Source of the DNA: a virus
Length of the DNA stretch: 23,577 bases
Direction: 5' to 3' (one strand)
Virus record (IMG/VR): IMGVR_UViG_3300018790_000009
Span: 1 to 23,577 of that record
Notes under the pieces: model-generated
The model's input: only the letters and a program-made list of their open reading frames with translations
Database searches by the model: none
What the model was told of the DNA's origin: nothing
Made by a program: the position numbers and the translations under genes
Shown: piece by piece, positions 1,459 to 5,684 of the stretch
Layout: the number at the start of each line of letters is the position of its first letter
Numbering within the stretch: position 1 is the first letter of the stretch

Positions 1459-1566
1459 TCATGCGGGCAGCCGAAGCTGAACCCCAAACGCTGGGCATTC
1501 CTCGTCGCGCGCTTCCTTCAGCGCCGCCGCCCATACAAGCCCCCTCAAAGCCTCATCCCACTCACT
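1459..1566 (-). CDS. Likely C-terminal part of a small gene, start unclear
   Basis: Directly after the stop of the gene at 1580-1924, one leftward frame reads SEWDEALRGLVWAAALKEAR and ends DEECPAFGVQLRLPA at 1459. The Trp-containing amphipathic helix looks like real protein. The frame stays open upstream into the preceding gene, but there is no credible ATG, GTG or ribosome site close to the junction. It may start inside the upstream gene or have lost its start. Coordinates cover only the part I believe to be coding. Confidence 0.35.
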   Translation of the reverse strand, partial: SEWDEALRGLVWAAALKEARDEECPAFGVQLRLPA

Positions 1567-1579
1567 GAATGGGGCGGGG

Positions 1580-1924
1580 CTACTCGCCTTCGAACTTCCC
1601 GGTCGAGGCTTGCAGATACAACCCGTCAGCTTCAAAGGACAAGGCAATTGCGTGCTCCTCAATCGGCATGCCTGCCTGTGCGGCATGGATCAGCACCTTC
1701 CGCGATGAATTCATCTGCAATTCGGCCGAGTGCCTAGCGACGACTGCGATGGCCAGCGTCAGGCCCGCAACGCCTGGGTGCTGTTCACGCATCTTTTCCA
1801 GCTCGCGTTGAGTCACCGCGAGCGCGGCATGCCCGCCTGTGTCCAGCAGCAGCCGGTTCGCGCGCTTCTGCGGCACTTTGCATTTCATTGGCCGTGCGCC
1901 GGGAATTTCAAGTTGTTCTTCCAT
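1580..1924 (-). CDS. Phage protein of unknown function, 114 residues
   Basis: I start this leftward gene at ATG 1924 (MEEQLEIPGARPMKCK) because AAGGAGAGAAGC precedes it; an upstream in-frame ATG has no such site. The protein is mixed alpha/beta: a basic N-terminus, a helix LAVTQRELEKMREQHPG, an Ala/Val-rich central strand-helix unit, and a C-terminal beta part reading SFEADGLYLQASTGKF. There is no membrane segment or catalytic motif that I recognise. It is the first gene downstream of the SGNH lipoprotein on the leftward strand, separated by a hairpin. Confidence 0.7.
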   Translation of the reverse strand: MEEQLEIPGARPMKCKVPQKRANRLLLDTGGHAALAVTQRELEKMREQHPGVAGLTLAIAVVARHSAELQMNSSRKVLIHAAQAGMPIEEHAIALSFEADGLYLQASTGKFEGE

Positions 1925-1943
1925 GCTTCTCTCCTTGGTTAAA

Positions 1944-1978
1944 TAGCCCAAGTACCTCTTTCACAGGCACTTGGGCTA
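1944..1978 (-). terminator. Strong hairpin, probable terminator
   Basis: TAGCCCAAGT and ACTTGGGCTA form a perfect ten-base inverted repeat around a fifteen-base loop. On the minus strand it is followed by TTTAACC, so the T-run is short. It lies between the lipoprotein gene and the next leftward gene and probably ends or attenuates the lipoprotein transcript. A weaker CCCCG/CGGGG hairpin occupies 1981-2000. Confidence 0.5.
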
Positions 1979-2004
1979 GCCCCGCGTGAGCAGGGCGGGG
2001 GTGG

Positions 2005-2700
2005 TTAGTTCGTCCCGCAAATCACACCCAGCACATAGCGGAGGTTTTCAGTAACTCCGTTGCTGGAGTCCTGGTCCAGATGAATGCCGTCAGTCCATGC
2101 CACTTCCACAGCATCGAAGCTGGCGTAATGGACGTTCCGCTCTATGGCCACGCCGCGCACTGCGGTCCTGATGGCGGCGACCCGGGCGTATATCTCTGGC
2201 TCAACCCGGTTCTGGTCGAGCTTGGTGATGCCGGTGATGACGGGGATCTTTCCCTGCATCCGGATGTAGTCCACCAGCACGCGGTAGTCGTGGGCGACCT
2301 GGGCAACGTGGAAGGGCTCTGTGCGGAAGTCGTTGATGCCGGTCTGGATGACGACGATGTTGCTCGGGTGGTCTTCCGCGCCGTAGGCCTGCTGAGGGCC
2401 GGATGGGAACAGATCAACCCAGGCTTCCGGGAAGGGTGTTGCATAGCCCCGCAGTAGGTCATAGGTCCGCAGCCCCCCGGCCGTCTTGTCGGTGACCGTG
2501 TAGCCAAACTTGCGCAGCCAGTCGGCCGGAGTGGTTTTCAGTCGCCATGTGGTCTTGTTGTTCACGAACCCGAACAGGACGCTGTCCCCGTTCAGCTCGA
2601 CCGTGCAGGCTTCCAGCCCTTTGGTGTGGTTGACTTCTTGAGCAGATGCGCCGCAGCCCACCAGGGCAATTGCAAGCGCGATGGCCAGTAAGTGACGCAT
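2005..2700 (-). CDS. SGNH/GDSL-hydrolase lipoprotein
   Basis: The start at ATG 2700 gives 231 residues beginning with a lipoprotein signal peptide (MRHLLAIALAIALVGC); the lipobox LVGC ends at Cys16, so the mature protein should be lipid-anchored in the periplasm or outer membrane. SGNH esterase hallmarks follow in order: block I GDS near residue 40, block III GIND near residue 140, and block V DGIH near residue 205 supplying Asp and His. The family hydrolyses esters such as acetyl groups on envelope polysaccharide, or lipids. In a leftward, repressor-side location this looks like a lysogenic-conversion gene altering the host surface. The substrate is inference. A longer in-frame start exists upstream but would bury the signal peptide. 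Confidence 0.85.
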   Translation of the reverse strand: MRHLLAIALAIALVGCGASAQEVNHTKGLEACTVELNGDSVLFGFVNNKTTWRLKTTPADWLRKFGYTVTDKTAGGLRTYDLLRGYATPFPEAWVDLFPSGPQQAYGAEDHPSNIVVIQTGINDFRTEPFHVAQVAHDYRVLVDYIRMQGKIPVITGITKLDQNRVEPEIYARVAAIRTAVRGVAIERNVHYASFDAVEVAWTDGIHLDQDSSNGVTENLRYVLGVICGTN

Positions 2701-2714
2701 GTGATTCCCCAATG

Positions 2715-2736
2715 AAAAAGCCACCCGGAGGTGGCT
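2715..2736 (-). terminator. Rho-independent terminator, leftward
   Basis: AGCCACC/GGTGGCT pairs around a four-base loop and is followed on the minus strand by five T. It ends fifteen bases before the lipoprotein start and closes whatever is transcribed leftward across 2737-3346. Confidence 0.85.
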
Positions 2737-3346
2737 GTTGAAAATCCAAAGCGGTCTTGGTGAAGGCGGCTTTGGGTTTGCCACTCTCTCGAATGGCGAT
2801 GCCGGTTACGCAATCCGGCGGTATTGCACCCGCGTTTAGGCCCGATGTATGCCGCTGGCGCCGCCCAAGCACTTCATGTCTTGAGTCGCTGAATCCAGCT
2901 TGGTAGCTCCGATCTGAGGCTGCATATACGTTGTGGCGGCGTCTCCTGGCTATCGCGGGGTGGGCGCTCCCGCAGCCATCAGCCAACTTGAATCCCATGC
3001 CGTCTGTCGCGCGGCTTTCGCGTGCTTTTGCTGAGTGGCCGGGTCGTCCGGCTCAGGTGGGTTGCATGTGTTTTCCTTCGCAGCGCTGGGCTGCCTGGTT
3101 GTTGAGGTGCTATCGCCCGCACCGGAAAGGGCGGCTCTTTTGTCTCACGCGGTGTGCCCTGCCGCGTCGTCAGCACCTCGCGGCGCCTTCGCTTACTCCG
3201 TTTACCCACTTTGGGGACTGGAGACGGTTTCCCGCGCTGCGCGCTGTTGATCACTGCACGCGGCTATTGCTCATCCTCAGTTTTTAATGAACTCATTCGT
3301 GGTGACCGCCGATCCGCTCACCCTGTCGCTGCGTTTTGCTGCGATG
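2737..3346 (-). other. Gene-poor region, candidate regulatory RNA or Icd/Ash-like locus
   Basis: About 600 bases lie between a near-consensus leftward promoter (3353-3380) and a terminator (2715-2736). No frame has both a credible start and convincing composition. Leftward candidates are a very Arg/Lys/Pro-rich 91-codon frame from GTG 3254 to 2979, a start-less frame 3144-2950 containing SGAGDSTSTTRQ, and a 29-codon frame beginning MQPQIGATKLDSATQD near 2897. Several short open frames overlap one another. Positions 3104-3179 can fold into a three-way junction. The layout recalls the P4 ash and P1 c4/icd immunity loci, where small RNAs and tiny overlapping genes coexist; that comparison is a hypothesis, not a recognised homology. 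Confidence 0.4.
3104..3179. other. Potential three-way-junction RNA fold
   Basis: GAGGTGCT (3104-3111) and AGCACCTC (3172-3179) are perfectly complementary. Inside them CGCCC/GGGCG (3114-3118, 3129-3133) and ACGCGG/CCGCGT (3147-3152, 3162-3167) form two further hairpins. The fold is possible on either strand; only the minus strand has an obvious promoter. Confidence 0.5.
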
Positions 3347-3352
3347 GGTTGA

Positions 3353-3380
3353 AGTATAGAGACTCTATACATGGTGTCAA
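3353..3380 (-). promoter_or_regulatory. Strong leftward sigma70 promoter
   Basis: On the minus strand a perfect -35 TTGACA (3375-3380) and -10 TATACT (3353-3358) are separated by 16 bases. Transcription would start near 3346 and run leftward toward the terminator at 2715-2736. Confidence 0.75.
3354..3370. promoter_or_regulatory. Palindromic operator overlapping the promoter
   Basis: GTATAGAG and CTCTATAC form a perfect palindrome with one central base. It covers the -10 box and most of the spacer of the promoter at 3353-3380, the classical position for a repressor operator. The phage repressor or the Cro-like protein is the natural candidate ligand. The half-site TCTATAC recurs at the -10 of the early rightward promoter (5388-5394). 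Confidence 0.65.
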
Positions 3381-3484
3381 GCGTTTCTGAACTAAAAGTG
3401 TGGAAATTCTGCACTTTCTGTAAACTCGCGCCAAGCGCCACCCCGGCGCGCAACAGGAGCCACACATGACAGAAGCGACAGGCG

Positions 3485-3507
3485 AAAAAAAACCCGCTCA
3501 TGGCGGG
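3485..3507 (-). terminator. Rho-independent terminator, leftward
   Basis: CCCGC/GCGGG with a five-base loop is followed on the minus strand by eight T. It lies 19 bases after the stop of the membrane protein gene 3526-3930. Confidence 0.85.
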
Positions 3508-3525
3508 CGCGCGGGGCGTTGTGTG

Positions 3526-3930
3526 TCAGCGGTGTTTCAGCAAGTCGATCAACCGTTCGCGTTCGGCAGTCATGGCCGCAGGGTCGGTAAAAACGGCCTG
3601 ATTGAGCGCATCAGGCGCAGAGCCGCTTTTCTCTGCTTCCTTGGTGCATTGCAGGGCCTTGCGCAAGCGGGCGGCCTGGATGCGCCCGGCGCGGCGGTAG
3701 AGCAAATCCCAATCGCTCTCGCTGATGTCGGCAATGCAAGAGCAGTGCGCGCCGCGCATGCGAATGAGGCGGCTGCGCACCTGGTCGGCGATGGCGTTGT
3801 ACTCGTTGCGCCGATCCCGTCCGATGGCCAGGCGGTGGCCAAGAATGAACCCGATCAAGCCAGTAACCAAAGGGGCGGCAAGCTGGACAACCGGACTACG
3901 CAGCAGCTCCTGGAAGCTCTCTTGCTCCAT
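3526..3930 (-). CDS. Small single-pass membrane protein, unknown function
   Basis: This 134-residue leftward gene starts at ATG 3930 after AAAAAGGAAATCACACA. Residues ~14-36 (VVQLAAPLVTGLIGFILG) are one transmembrane helix. The rest is a charged, helical cytoplasmic domain containing RRNEYNAIADQVRSRLIRMR, a CSCIADISESDWDLLYRRAG stretch, and a final helix ERERLIDLLKHR. A terminator follows it. It lies downstream of the repressor, nuclease and zinc-ribbon genes on the same strand, so it is probably expressed in the lysogen. A small membrane protein in this place is a common layout for superinfection exclusion or conversion genes; that is inference. Confidence 0.8.
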   Translation of the reverse strand: MEQESFQELLRSPVVQLAAPLVTGLIGFILGHRLAIGRDRRNEYNAIADQVRSRLIRMRGAHCSCIADISESDWDLLYRRAGRIQAARLRKALQCTKEAEKSGSAPDALNQAVFTDPAAMTAERERLIDLLKHR

Positions 3931-3992
3931 TGTGTGATTTCCTTTTTGGTGTCGCTACTGCTTGGCTATGCCTGGGCATATCGACCCTGGTT

Positions 3993-4022
3993 CTAGCCAT
4001 CCTCCCACTTGCCCAGCACTGT
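3993..4022 (-). pseudogene. Relic of a second CI-type repressor 3' end
   Basis: Leftward codons read TVLGKWEDG and then a TAG stop. The intact repressor at 4703-5320 ends with exactly the same nine residues. The codons differ at almost every third position (for example ACA/ACG, AAG/AAA, GAT/GAC, stop TAG/TAA), so this is the tail of a diverged homologous repressor rather than a fresh copy. It begins just at the stop codon of the HNH gene (4028-4030), marking a recombination junction. Confidence 0.75.
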
Positions 4023-4027
4023 GCGGG

Positions 4028-4342
4028 CTACCGTTCAACAAGGCGCCGCGACTTGCGGCACTCCTTCACATCCACCAGCGTCTTAAACCGGTGGTCCTCT
4101 TTGGTGATCCACTGCATGTTGCTGGGCCGATCCTCGCCGCCCGCGCATAGCGGCGTCACATGATCCACCTCCCAGCCCGGGCAGGCCCCGCGCTTGAGTC
4201 CGGTGACCGGGCAGGGGTTCTCATTGCGGAACGCCCGCACCTGGGCCTGGTCGCGCGGGATCTTTGCGAAGGTGGGCAGGGTCAGGAGTAGGGCGGCCAG
4301 TAGGGCAGCTACTTGCGCGCGTCCGATTCCATCTTTTCGCAT
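4028..4342 (-). CDS. Exported HNH endonuclease
   Basis: The start at ATG 4342 gives 104 residues. Residues 1-26 form a signal peptide (MRKDGIGRAQVAALLAALLL, then TLPTFA), so the mature protein should be periplasmic. The HNH core follows: CPVTGLKRGACPG, then EVDHVTPLCAGGEDRPSNMQW with the catalytic D-H, the central Asn, and a downstream DHRFK supplying the last His. Three further Cys could form disulphides or bind zinc. The start lies inside the preceding zinc-ribbon gene (34-base overlap) and has no ribosome site, so translation is probably coupled. The family of small secreted HNH proteins with the VDH-PLCAGG-NMQW signature is widespread in proteobacteria, but its role is unknown to me. Restriction of incoming DNA in the periplasm is a hypothesis. 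Confidence 0.8.
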   Translation of the reverse strand: MRKDGIGRAQVAALLAALLLTLPTFAKIPRDQAQVRAFRNENPCPVTGLKRGACPGWEVDHVTPLCAGGEDRPSNMQWITKEDHRFKTLVDVKECRKSRRLVER

Positions 4343-4692
4343 GTGCTGGCAATGAATCTCGCTGTGTCTGGGTCGTTGGATTTCTTCCCAAAATCCTTCC
4401 AACACAGCTCAATGGCCGACTGCTGCGCTGACTTGGCCTTGCCTTGTGGCGTGTTGCCAGAGCAAGACCCAATGAGCACCAGCAGCGCAAAGCCACCAGC
4501 GGGCACGCCCAGCGCCCACTTCCACCAGCTCGACCCACCACTCTTTGGCGGGTTCATCACTGGTGGCGGCATGTCCTGGTAGTAGCGCCCGACCTTCGGC
4601 GCTTCGCTTGCCACTGGCGCGCCGCAGTGTGGGCAGGCCGCCGCCTTGTCGCTAATCTCCTTGCCGCATTCGGCGCATGCAATCAGTGCCAT
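4309..4692 (-). CDS. Zinc-ribbon membrane protein
   Basis: ATG 4692 follows a GGAGGATTG ribosome site. The 127-residue protein starts with a zinc ribbon (Cys6, Cys9, Cys20, Cys23: CAECGKEIS…CPHCGAP), then a Pro-rich linker, one transmembrane helix at ~55-78 (WWKWALGVPAGGFALLVLIG), and a hydrophilic C-terminal domain with a Cys pair that ends STCEKMESDARK. With one membrane segment the zinc ribbon would face the cytoplasm and the C-terminal domain the periplasm, where the overlapping downstream gene's HNH nuclease also goes. It begins eleven bases after the repressor stop, so it should be made in lysogens with the repressor. Function unknown. Confidence 0.82.
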   Translation of the reverse strand: MALIACAECGKEISDKAAACPHCGAPVASEAPKVGRYYQDMPPPVMNPPKSGGSSWWKWALGVPAGGFALLVLIGSCSGNTPQGKAKSAQQSAIELCWKDFGKKSNDPDTARFIASTCEKMESDARK

Positions 4693-4702
4693 CAATCCTC
4701 CG

Positions 4703-5320
4703 TTATCCGTCTTCCCATTTCCCCAGCACCGTGCCCAGGATGTGAAACTTCTCCCGGATGGGCTCGTGGGATGGATTCAGCGGCTGCAGCCATTGGCGGC
4801 CGTCCTCGTTCTTGTAGACCTTGAACGTCACTTCGTCGGTGCCATCAAGGCAGGCCACCACCCGATCTCCGTTGCTGGGGTTCTTGCGCTCTGGGTCCAC
4901 GAAGATGTAGCAGCCCTCGGGGTAGGTCCTGCTGTTGCCGCTGGGCGCCGTCATGGAGTCGCCGCGCACGCGCAGAGCAAACGTGCTGCCGCTGTGGCTG
5001 ACGGGGCAATCCATCCAGCGGTCGGCCTGGCCTGGCAGGTGTGGATCTGCAGCGTTGCACCACTCACCGGCCTGCACCCAGGAAATCAACGGCACCTTGC
5101 CACGCAAGTCTGGGCCTGGCTCTGTATTGGCGACGCCCTCAAGCGGAAGCGGGTAGCCAGTCAGGGCTGAAACGCGCTTCATCTGCTCGAAGCTGGGCTT
5201 GTGTCGCCCATTTTCCCAGCCGGAGACATTGCCTTTCGACATCTCCAGTTTTTCGGCCAATCCGTCCTGCGTCAGCTGCGCGTGCTTGCGGGCCGCCCGG
5301 ACCCATTCATTCGTGCTCAT
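4703..5320 (-). CDS. cI: CI-type repressor, HTH plus S24 peptidase
   Basis: This 205-residue leftward repressor maintains lysogeny by binding the switch operators. Residues ~4-60 are an HTH_3 domain (LTQDGLAEKLEMSKGNVSGW, recognition helix near KGNVSGWENG). Residues ~75-205 are a LexA-like S24 domain: cleavage site Ala84-Gly85 (SWVQAGEW), catalytic Ser122 (RGDSM) and Lys167 (VTFKVYK). RecA-stimulated self-cleavage and SOS induction follow from the family. Start ATG 5320 fits the HTH length. The bases before it (TTTACATTTCCTCC) hold no ribosome site, so a leaderless message like lambda PRM is likely. Longer in-frame starts run through the divergent regulator and are rejected. The zinc-ribbon and HNH genes follow directly. 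Confidence 0.93.
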   Translation of the reverse strand: MSTNEWVRAARKHAQLTQDGLAEKLEMSKGNVSGWENGRHKPSFEQMKRVSALTGYPLPLEGVANTEPGPDLRGKVPLISWVQAGEWCNAADPHLPGQADRWMDCPVSHSGSTFALRVRGDSMTAPSGNSRTYPEGCYIFVDPERKNPSNGDRVVACLDGTDEVTFKVYKNEDGRQWLQPLNPSHEPIREKFHILGTVLGKWEDG

Positions 5321-5339
5321 GGAGGAAATGTAAAGAACA

Positions 5340-5414
5340 TCTGAACAAATTGGGTACTGAAATGCTTGACCTTGTGGGTGCAGAAGTTCTATACTGGTAT
5401 CGAAATTCTGAACA
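5340..5414. promoter_or_regulatory. Lysogeny switch operator region
   Basis: Between the divergent repressor and Cro-like genes, TCTGAACA occurs at 5340-5347 and 5407-5414 in the same orientation. ATACTGGTAT (5391-5400) is a short palindrome touching the -10 of the rightward promoter. These are the best operator candidates; the exact sites cannot be fixed by reading. Confidence 0.45.
5366..5395 (+). promoter_or_regulatory. Early rightward promoter (PR-like)
   Basis: TTGACC (5366-5371) and TATACT (5390-5395) are separated by 18 bases. It points into the Cro-like gene whose ATG is at 5424, giving a leader of about 20 bases. Confidence 0.7.
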
Positions 5415-5423
5415 GGACAACCG

Positions 5424-5684
5424 ATGCACCCGATCGACAAAGCCGCCGACATCATCGGCTCACAAACCGCACTGGCGGCAGTGCTGGGCGTCAGCAAGGG
5501 CGCCGTCAGCCAGTGGAAAGACGAAGACCGCCGTGTTCCTGCCGCCCATTGCGTGGCGATTGAGCAGCAAACCAAAGGCGCCGTCACCCGCCGCGACCTG
5601 CGCCCCGACGACTGGCACCTGATTTGGCCCGAGCTGGCCAAGCCCGCCCGCAAAGCCAAGCACTCGGAGGCCGCCCATGGATAA
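5424..5684 (+). CDS. Cro-like regulator, YdaS family HTH
   Basis: This 86-residue protein is the first gene of the rightward early operon, divergent from the repressor. Residues ~3-60 are a helix-turn-helix of the YdaS/Cro type: AADIIGSQTALAAVLGVSKG is followed by AVSQWKDEDRRVPAAHC, the usual YdaS pattern of recognition helix plus R-V-P-A. RRDLRPDDWHLIWPEL is the characteristic end. It should bind switch operators and oppose the repressor. The C-terminal tail is Lys/Ala-rich and probably disordered. The stop is followed without gap by an opposing gene. Confidence 0.88.
   Translation: MHPIDKAADIIGSQTALAAVLGVSKGAVSQWKDEDRRVPAAHCVAIEQQTKGAVTRRDLRPDDWHLIWPELAKPARKAKHSEAAHG

Follow-up and report, generated by a model that had tools for sequence, protein, structure and literature searches.

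Features of the leftward early region

The DNA analysed here, called the window throughout, is a 23.6-kb virus record (IMG/VR IMGVR_UViG_3300018790_000009, 23,577 nucleotides); a 44-kb IMG/VR contig (IMGVR_UViG_3300018815_000428) is identical to it over the 1,000 bases compared. The start of the window (positions 1-120) carries tandem-like GTGGTGGCGGCGTTCGCC repeats. The unit under study lies on the repressor side and is read on the minus strand. It runs for about 630 bases after a promoter overlapped by operator-like sites, carries a BoxA and several predicted hairpins, and ends in an intrinsic terminator; some 18 bases separate the end of its stem from the start codon (ATG) of a GDSL-like hydrolase gene. 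The coordinates of all features are collected in Table 1, and L numbers in the text designate the loci used for comparison.

Table 1. Positions of genes, regulatory sites and predicted RNA elements in the window
Feature	Position	Strand	Basis or remark
First leftward gene, GDSL-like hydrolase	2005..2700	minus	Pfam PF13472, E 3.7e-10
Predicted untranslated leader RNA, whole unit	2712..3347	minus	start inferred from pL; promoter-to-terminator span, kept in relatives
Intrinsic terminator, AGCCACC-TCCG-GGTGGCT-TTTTT	2712..2736	minus	hairpin and U-run at 2736..2719
Weaker terminator-like hairpin, CCAAAGC..GCTTTGG-ATTTT	2741..2775	minus	counterpart of the attenuator of relatives; has U-run
Hairpin H, GCCATTC-GAGA-GAGTGGC	2780..2797	minus	3/7 pairs with two-sided change
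Hairpin F, GCCGG-ATTGCGTAA-CCGGC	2801..2819	minus	conserved 9-base loop
Module E, including GGCTGCGGGAGCGCCCACCCCGCGATAGCC	2935..3103	minus	most conserved stretch; alignments of relatives
Tiny frame, ATG CAA CCC ACC TGA, with Shine-Dalgarno	3053..3067	minus	directly 5' of GCCGG hairpin
Module D1, GAGCAATAGCCGC ... CTCCAGTCCCC-AAAG-TGGGTAAACGGAG ...	3106..3272	minus	conserved in L008, L044, L045, L047, L077
BoxA, GTTCATTAAAAAC	3280..3292	minus	13-nt identity to rrn BoxA of L136
5' hairpin, CCCATCGC..GCGACAGGG	3320..3348	minus	at transcript start; conserved family anchor; forms in predicted folds
Candidate leftward early promoter pL, TTGACA-16-TATACT	3353..3380	minus	11/12 consensus bases
oL1 operator-like site, perfect 17-bp palindrome GTATAGAG-A-CTCTATAC	3354..3370		overlaps pL -10
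oL2 operator-like site, GTCAAGCGTTTCTGAAC	3376..3392		overlaps pL -35; weakest of the three oL sites
oL3 operator-like site, GTGTGGAAATTCTGCAC	3398..3414		17 bp; resembles oR sites
CI-like repressor, HTH and S24 peptidase	4703..5320	minus	Pfam PF00717, E 4.5e-24; PF01381, E 1.8e-10
Four operator-like sites, repressor-cro gap	5330-5346, 5354-5370, 5378-5394, 5397-5413		match oL sites
Cro/YdaS-like gene, divergent from repressor	5424..5684	plus	Pfam PF15943, E 2.9e-23; P22_Cro PF14549, E 8.3e-11

Promoter and operator-like sites

The promoter was the only sigma-70-like match in positions 1500-5000 (shuffled sequence gave a mean of 0.8 at the weaker threshold of 9/12), and its equivalents in relatives stand at the same position, with a similar TTCACCCATCGCAGCA downstream. 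An earlier note on this DNA had described a leftward TTGACA/TATACT promoter with a perfect palindrome, and both are present. The palindrome has no second place in the window within 3 mismatches and appeared in 0 of 100 shuffles. It is the first of three oL sites whose starts follow one another at 22-bp steps (3354, 3376 and 3398). An operator matrix derived from six of the sites put its seven highest-scoring positions in the window all within the oL and repressor-cro clusters, with oL3 in fourth place; this matrix ranks its own input, oL3 included, and only the seventh site, at 5354, had not been entered beforehand.

The arms of oL1 are identical in L007, L033 and L038, whose repressor HTH nearly matches that of the window, and in L008 and L010 the N-terminal part of the repressor differs and other sequences stand at the equivalent promoter. 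Together, the operator-like sites at the promoter and between repressor and cro appear to form the oL/oR layout of lambdoid phages. Because of this layout, and because the operators track the repressor HTH in relatives, we take the leftward promoter to be pL.

Coding potential of the unit

Minus-strand open reading frames of 91, 74 and 179 codons (2979-3254, 3277-3501 and 2459-2998) are present in the unit, and a translated search of the leftward frames, including for families of the Ash/Icd kind, gave no match in Pfam (E ≤ 0.1) or in PHROGs (E ≤ 0.01). Substitutions in the D1-E block between the window and each of four relatives (L045, L044, L047 and L077) had no codon-position bias, with counts by position of 12/9/11, 6/7/10, 8/6/9 and 7/9/12. 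In four of five rows, including that of the window, the long frame of this block stays open over 94-116 codons; a 1-base deletion disrupts it in L045. The strongest argument for coding is this shared open frame, which carries little weight in GC-rich DNA. A search for inverted or direct repeats of at least 12 bases in positions 2500-3700 found none, a length that leaves shorter antisense complementarity possible.

A much smaller frame, consisting of an ATG, three codons and a stop behind a Shine-Dalgarno sequence, precedes the invariant GCCGG hairpin in module E, with peptides that vary between copies (MQPT, MTPN, MNTA, MTTQ and MRHH). It is not strictly conserved, since the ATG is absent in L046 and the stop is moved in L043.

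The earlier note had likened the locus to the P4 ash or P1 icd-c4 immunity loci with tiny overlapping frames; the missing Pfam or PHROGs family, the even codon positions and the broken frame of L045 speak against this, and the SGAGDSTSTTRQ frame that it had taken as a family hint sits inside a conserved RNA hairpin (CCGGTGCGGGCGATAGCACC, predicted). As far as sequence tells, the leader is apparently an RNA rather than a protein locus. What held of that note is the stretch of about 600 bases with a good terminator and no convincing gene, together with the picture of an operator-controlled, folded, apparently non-coding and terminated RNA on the repressor side. Its isolation did not hold: the leftward GDSL gene stands right behind the terminator, and the unit would therefore be an operon leader and not necessarily an isolated gene-less unit.

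A family of leaders with exchanged modules

In relatives the -10 is directly followed by TTCACCCATCGCAGCA, a sequence present in 75 viral contig stretches; some of these are chance occurrences that lack a promoter, and others have short leaders. Related phages have the same promoter and the CCCATCGC start, followed by a gene-less leader; such a gene-less stretch after the start is present in most promoter-bearing relatives, each phage having its own operator. The leader set used for counting comprised 45 leaders (46 minus one duplicate), after seven anchors had been dropped beforehand as false or short. A first gene could be called mechanically in 40 of the 45, and the median length of these 40 leaders is 556.5 nt; the calls are surely mistaken in some rows (L076, L089, L046 and L047). 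In 22 of these 40, a terminator-like hairpin lies at most 75 nt from the first start. The leader of Acidovorax phage AP1, a deposited isolate, is about 830 nt long, with no annotated feature under the match.

The order of elements in the window leader is 5' hairpin, BoxA, D1, E, hairpins F and H, and terminators. An additional domain stands between BoxA and D1 in L044 and L047, and L049 and L057 have a different module where D1 stands. Module E is found in AP1 at 81%, and its 3' half is near-invariant across ten leaders. In three leaders the Rfam motif Burkholderiales-2 (RF02917) scored above the gathering threshold (L033:7797-7870, L112:7259-7332 and L120:6744-6818), and it was recognised by eye in Bordetella phage IFTN9, a phage of Bordetella avium whose record gives induction by mitomycin C. 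The window leader itself matched no Rfam family, RF02917 included. At a permissive setting, sub-threshold Rfam matches to isrK, isrD, sR32 and Yar_3 appeared and were treated as chance. At the short end, L095, L098, L101, L116 and L131 have a CCCATCGCAGCA start but meet a gene after only about 40-70 nt and lack the RNA modules. From these comparisons, the window unit is a member of a mosaic family of pL leaders, predicted to be structured and untranslated, that occurs in Betaproteobacteria phages and in which modules are swapped and operators differ.

A recurrent module, CGAAACGACCGAAGGGGTAGCGATCCGGCCCCTGAACCGACTCGATGCAAGAGGAAGGTCTAGC (L062:3702-3800, L069:4424-4530, L107:12249-12350 and similar leaders), resembles a separate conserved structured RNA; L062, which carries it, had no Rfam match.

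BLAST of the unit against phages returned AP1 and five short terminator matches in coliphages, and against plasmids no match; the leaders of L109 and L010 had no match against phages. Such leaders are rare in bacterial genomes: one stretch among bacterial genome contigs had the module-E pattern, and among 399 Comamonadaceae genomes the leader model R1 was found in one, the leader start motif in two and module E DNA in five (two with the 5' half only and two with matches of 27-28 nt only).

RNA folding and covariation

The folding energy of the window leader gave z = -1.52, with 1 of 20 shuffles equally good, so that single-sequence energy is not informative here and structural support comes from relatives. 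Eight leaders have a long-range helix of 17-23 bp directly 3' of BoxA, spanning about 110-206 nt, in which 144 of 150 cells are paired and 12 of 19 positions have two-sided change; when the arms were swapped between phages, pairing was 70%. This domain is absent from the window leader.

Hairpins F and H, present in the window, have 98.1% of cells paired with 8 two-sided cells, a level that 0 of 500 shuffles reached. Within F, two-sided change is confined to 1 of 5 pairs, the other 4 never vary, and the loop is nearly invariant. In the five leaders closest to that of the window, two-sided change was seen at 15 of 147 predicted pairs, and the covariation term summed to a slightly unfavourable +1.32. 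The covariance analysis of homologous regions that the earlier note had proposed thus supports hairpins F and H, which co-vary, and not the whole predicted fold of the window leader.

BoxA in phage leaders and in rrn leaders

The rrn reference was assembled from 30 genomes, 9 of which had a 16S match (13 matches, 12 loci fetched); L140 stopped short of BoxA, leaving 11 rrn leaders. In these leaders, all from Acidovorax relatives, BoxA reads GTTCATTAAAAA, GATCCTTAAAAA, GGTCTTTAAAAA or GATCTTTAACAA and stands directly 5' of ACAGCCGATAAGCGTGGGCG. The window BoxA agrees in 13 of 13 nt with that of L136, an Acidovorax relative that may not be the host of the window phage, and GTTCATTAAAAAC has no other match in the window within 2 mismatches. 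Phage BoxA sequences have A, C or T at the fifth base and A or C at the tenth, and host rrn operons vary at the same positions. One study gives the gamma-proteobacterial BoxA consensus as GYTCTTTAANA, its authors stating that noncoding RNAs were not considered (PMC5725501).

Within the first 170 nt, 16 of the 45 leaders contain TC[ACT]TTAA[AC]AA, a broad pattern written after the phage leaders had been seen; the strictly host-derived form is present in 11 of 45. The broad pattern occurs 0 times on the reverse strand and 0 times in the next 170 nt. Shuffles gave a mean of 0.006 and a maximum of 1 (500 rounds) against the 16 observed, counts that overstate independence because the leaders are related. 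By density, the 16 occurrences in 7,650 nt of leaders compare with 5 in the remaining 868,254 nt of these loci, a difference of about 360-fold. About nine of the 29 leaders without an exact BoxA carry, at the equivalent position, a form with one mismatch, and the remainder have none. Bordetella phage IFTN9, an independent case read after the idea had formed, carries GCTCTTTAACAAC, an exact BoxA, some 50 nt from the start of its leader, and two further prophage leaders from the 399 Comamonadaceae genomes have near matches, none exact.

The rrn leaders of Acidovorax relatives (L134-L145, upstream of 16S) begin ..GCTGATCGCAGC.., and phage leaders begin CCCATCGCAGC; the ATCGCAGC near the transcript start that is common to both may be meaningful.

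Proposed role of the leader

We consider it probable that the unit serves as untranslated leader to the leftward early (pL) operon, equipped with an rrn-type BoxA at which a Nus/BoxA complex prevents Rho termination, and with an attenuator ahead of the first gene. The S24 repressor would occupy the three operators over pL in the lysogen. Once repression is lifted, RNA polymerase would make a leader that opens with the small hairpin and BoxA, where NusB, NusE (S10) and partners would load and protect the polymerase against Rho, a factor that could be expected to end transcription within 600 untranslated bases. Next would come the folded chain of modules (D1, E, F and H in the window phage, others in relatives), and the intrinsic terminators directly before the first gene would split the output into free leader RNA and read-through mRNA.

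In a study in E. coli, a 567-bp noncoding 5'-UTR insert led to Rho termination, which an upstream rrn boxA prevented (PMC4807359). The parts of the window stand in the same order as in that construct (promoter, BoxA, about 570 nt of noncoding RNA, gene). For this reason, and because untranslated RNA as long as this is a natural Rho target, we take BoxA as the element that would let polymerase finish the leader.

The promoter with its operators, the family, the exchange of modules, the lack of coding signal, the folding of several elements and the presence of BoxA are supported by the comparisons above. The antitermination itself (Nus loading, Rho protection, the ratio of termination to read-through and the roles of the modules) we infer. 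Against the proposal stand the leaders that lack a BoxA, the absence from the window of the long helix that follows BoxA in relatives, and the terminators, which by their place ahead of the first gene would lower its expression; antitermination of the rrn type, moreover, works mainly against Rho-dependent and not against intrinsic termination.

Alternative explanations

The product could instead be the leader RNA, acting in trans; BoxA would then do no more than ensure that this phage RNA is made in full length, and the downstream genes would be incidental. The near-invariant loops and module E, the terminators in front of the first gene and the swapping of modules as whole units all fit such an RNA, yet the leader precedes a leftward gene in the 40 of 45 cases where a first gene could be called, and the short-leader relatives keep promoter and start without RNA modules, so that a phage can do without them; we hold this possible but rather unlikely. 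It becomes more doubtful in a further form, in which large mosaic phage noncoding RNAs are made rRNA-like early in infection through the host rrn BoxA and it is this RNA, rather than the proteins encoded downstream, that works on the host in trans. In detail, the long helix of the relatives would be leader-trailer-like and the RNA might, for example, draw Nus factors from rRNA synthesis. A derivation of the leader modules from rRNA was also considered and rejected: when the leaders (minus the seven anchors) were compared with four rRNA loci, all matches were short, at 13-29 nt, and the best had E 0.036.

The chief known systems of antitermination in phages are N/nut, Q and put. As in lambda nutL (BoxA and boxB), the window BoxA stands directly behind pL, and a phage N-like protein acting with it would carry polymerase through intrinsic terminators too. 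The first leftward gene, however, encodes a GDSL hydrolase and not a small basic protein of the N kind, the BoxA is of rrn type, and the window has no second BoxA for the rightward transcript. The single BoxA therefore favours a role tied to the pL leader over an N-like system on both early transcripts, and we judge the lambda-type explanation improbable. The put sites of HK022, which act without protein and comprise two put-type hairpins, invite a comparison because here too a conserved, predicted folded RNA lies directly behind pL, and the RNA itself might bind polymerase and suppress termination. The window leader differs from them in sequence, is much longer than a put site (about 70 nt) and contains a BoxA, and we think a put-like mode of action very improbable. 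For a translated locus, in which the 91-codon frame or the tiny frames would encode regulatory peptides in the style of ash or icd, one can point to the open D1-E frame and to the tiny frame with its Shine-Dalgarno sequence in most module E copies; against the even substitutions, the deletion in L045, the absence of a family match and the lost ATG in L046, we find this extremely improbable.

Relation to known RNAs

The proposed leader most resembles the rrn antitermination leader (NusB/NusE/SuhB) in having the BoxA sequence of the rrn operons of Acidovorax relatives before a long untranslated RNA and, in some phage relatives, a long-range helix after BoxA. It differs from it in that pL is under predicted repressor control, the RNA is not rRNA, and intrinsic terminators stand before the gene. 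GOLLD and ROOL are ornate large noncoding RNAs, some of them from phages, and the likeness extends to size and predicted folding; unlike GOLLD, ROOL and OLE, the window leader has no match to an Rfam covariance model, is a mosaic of swappable modules and would serve as a repressor-controlled operon leader.

A literature search for phage BoxA with noncoding leaders and for AP1, covering titles and abstract starts with partial coverage, found no description of such leaders. BoxA-type antitermination and folded leaders are already known; the literature searched yielded no description of the two combined in a mosaic pL leader of a phage. A host rrn-type BoxA before several hundred bases of folded untranslated RNA would differ from the N/nut, Q and put solutions. 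The leaders allow a direct test of whether BoxA outside rRNA operons lets phages make long noncoding RNA, and the exchange of modules provides a natural series for learning the role of each.

Burkholderiales-2, a published candidate RNA, is one exchangeable module of the related leaders, and the window has D1 in its place. No paper naming it was found (partial literature coverage). The leaders give this orphan Rfam motif a defined setting of strand, promoter and operon. In L033, L112 and L120 the strand of the Rfam model is opposite to that of promoter, BoxA and terminator, and the Rfam strand may have been assigned wrongly.
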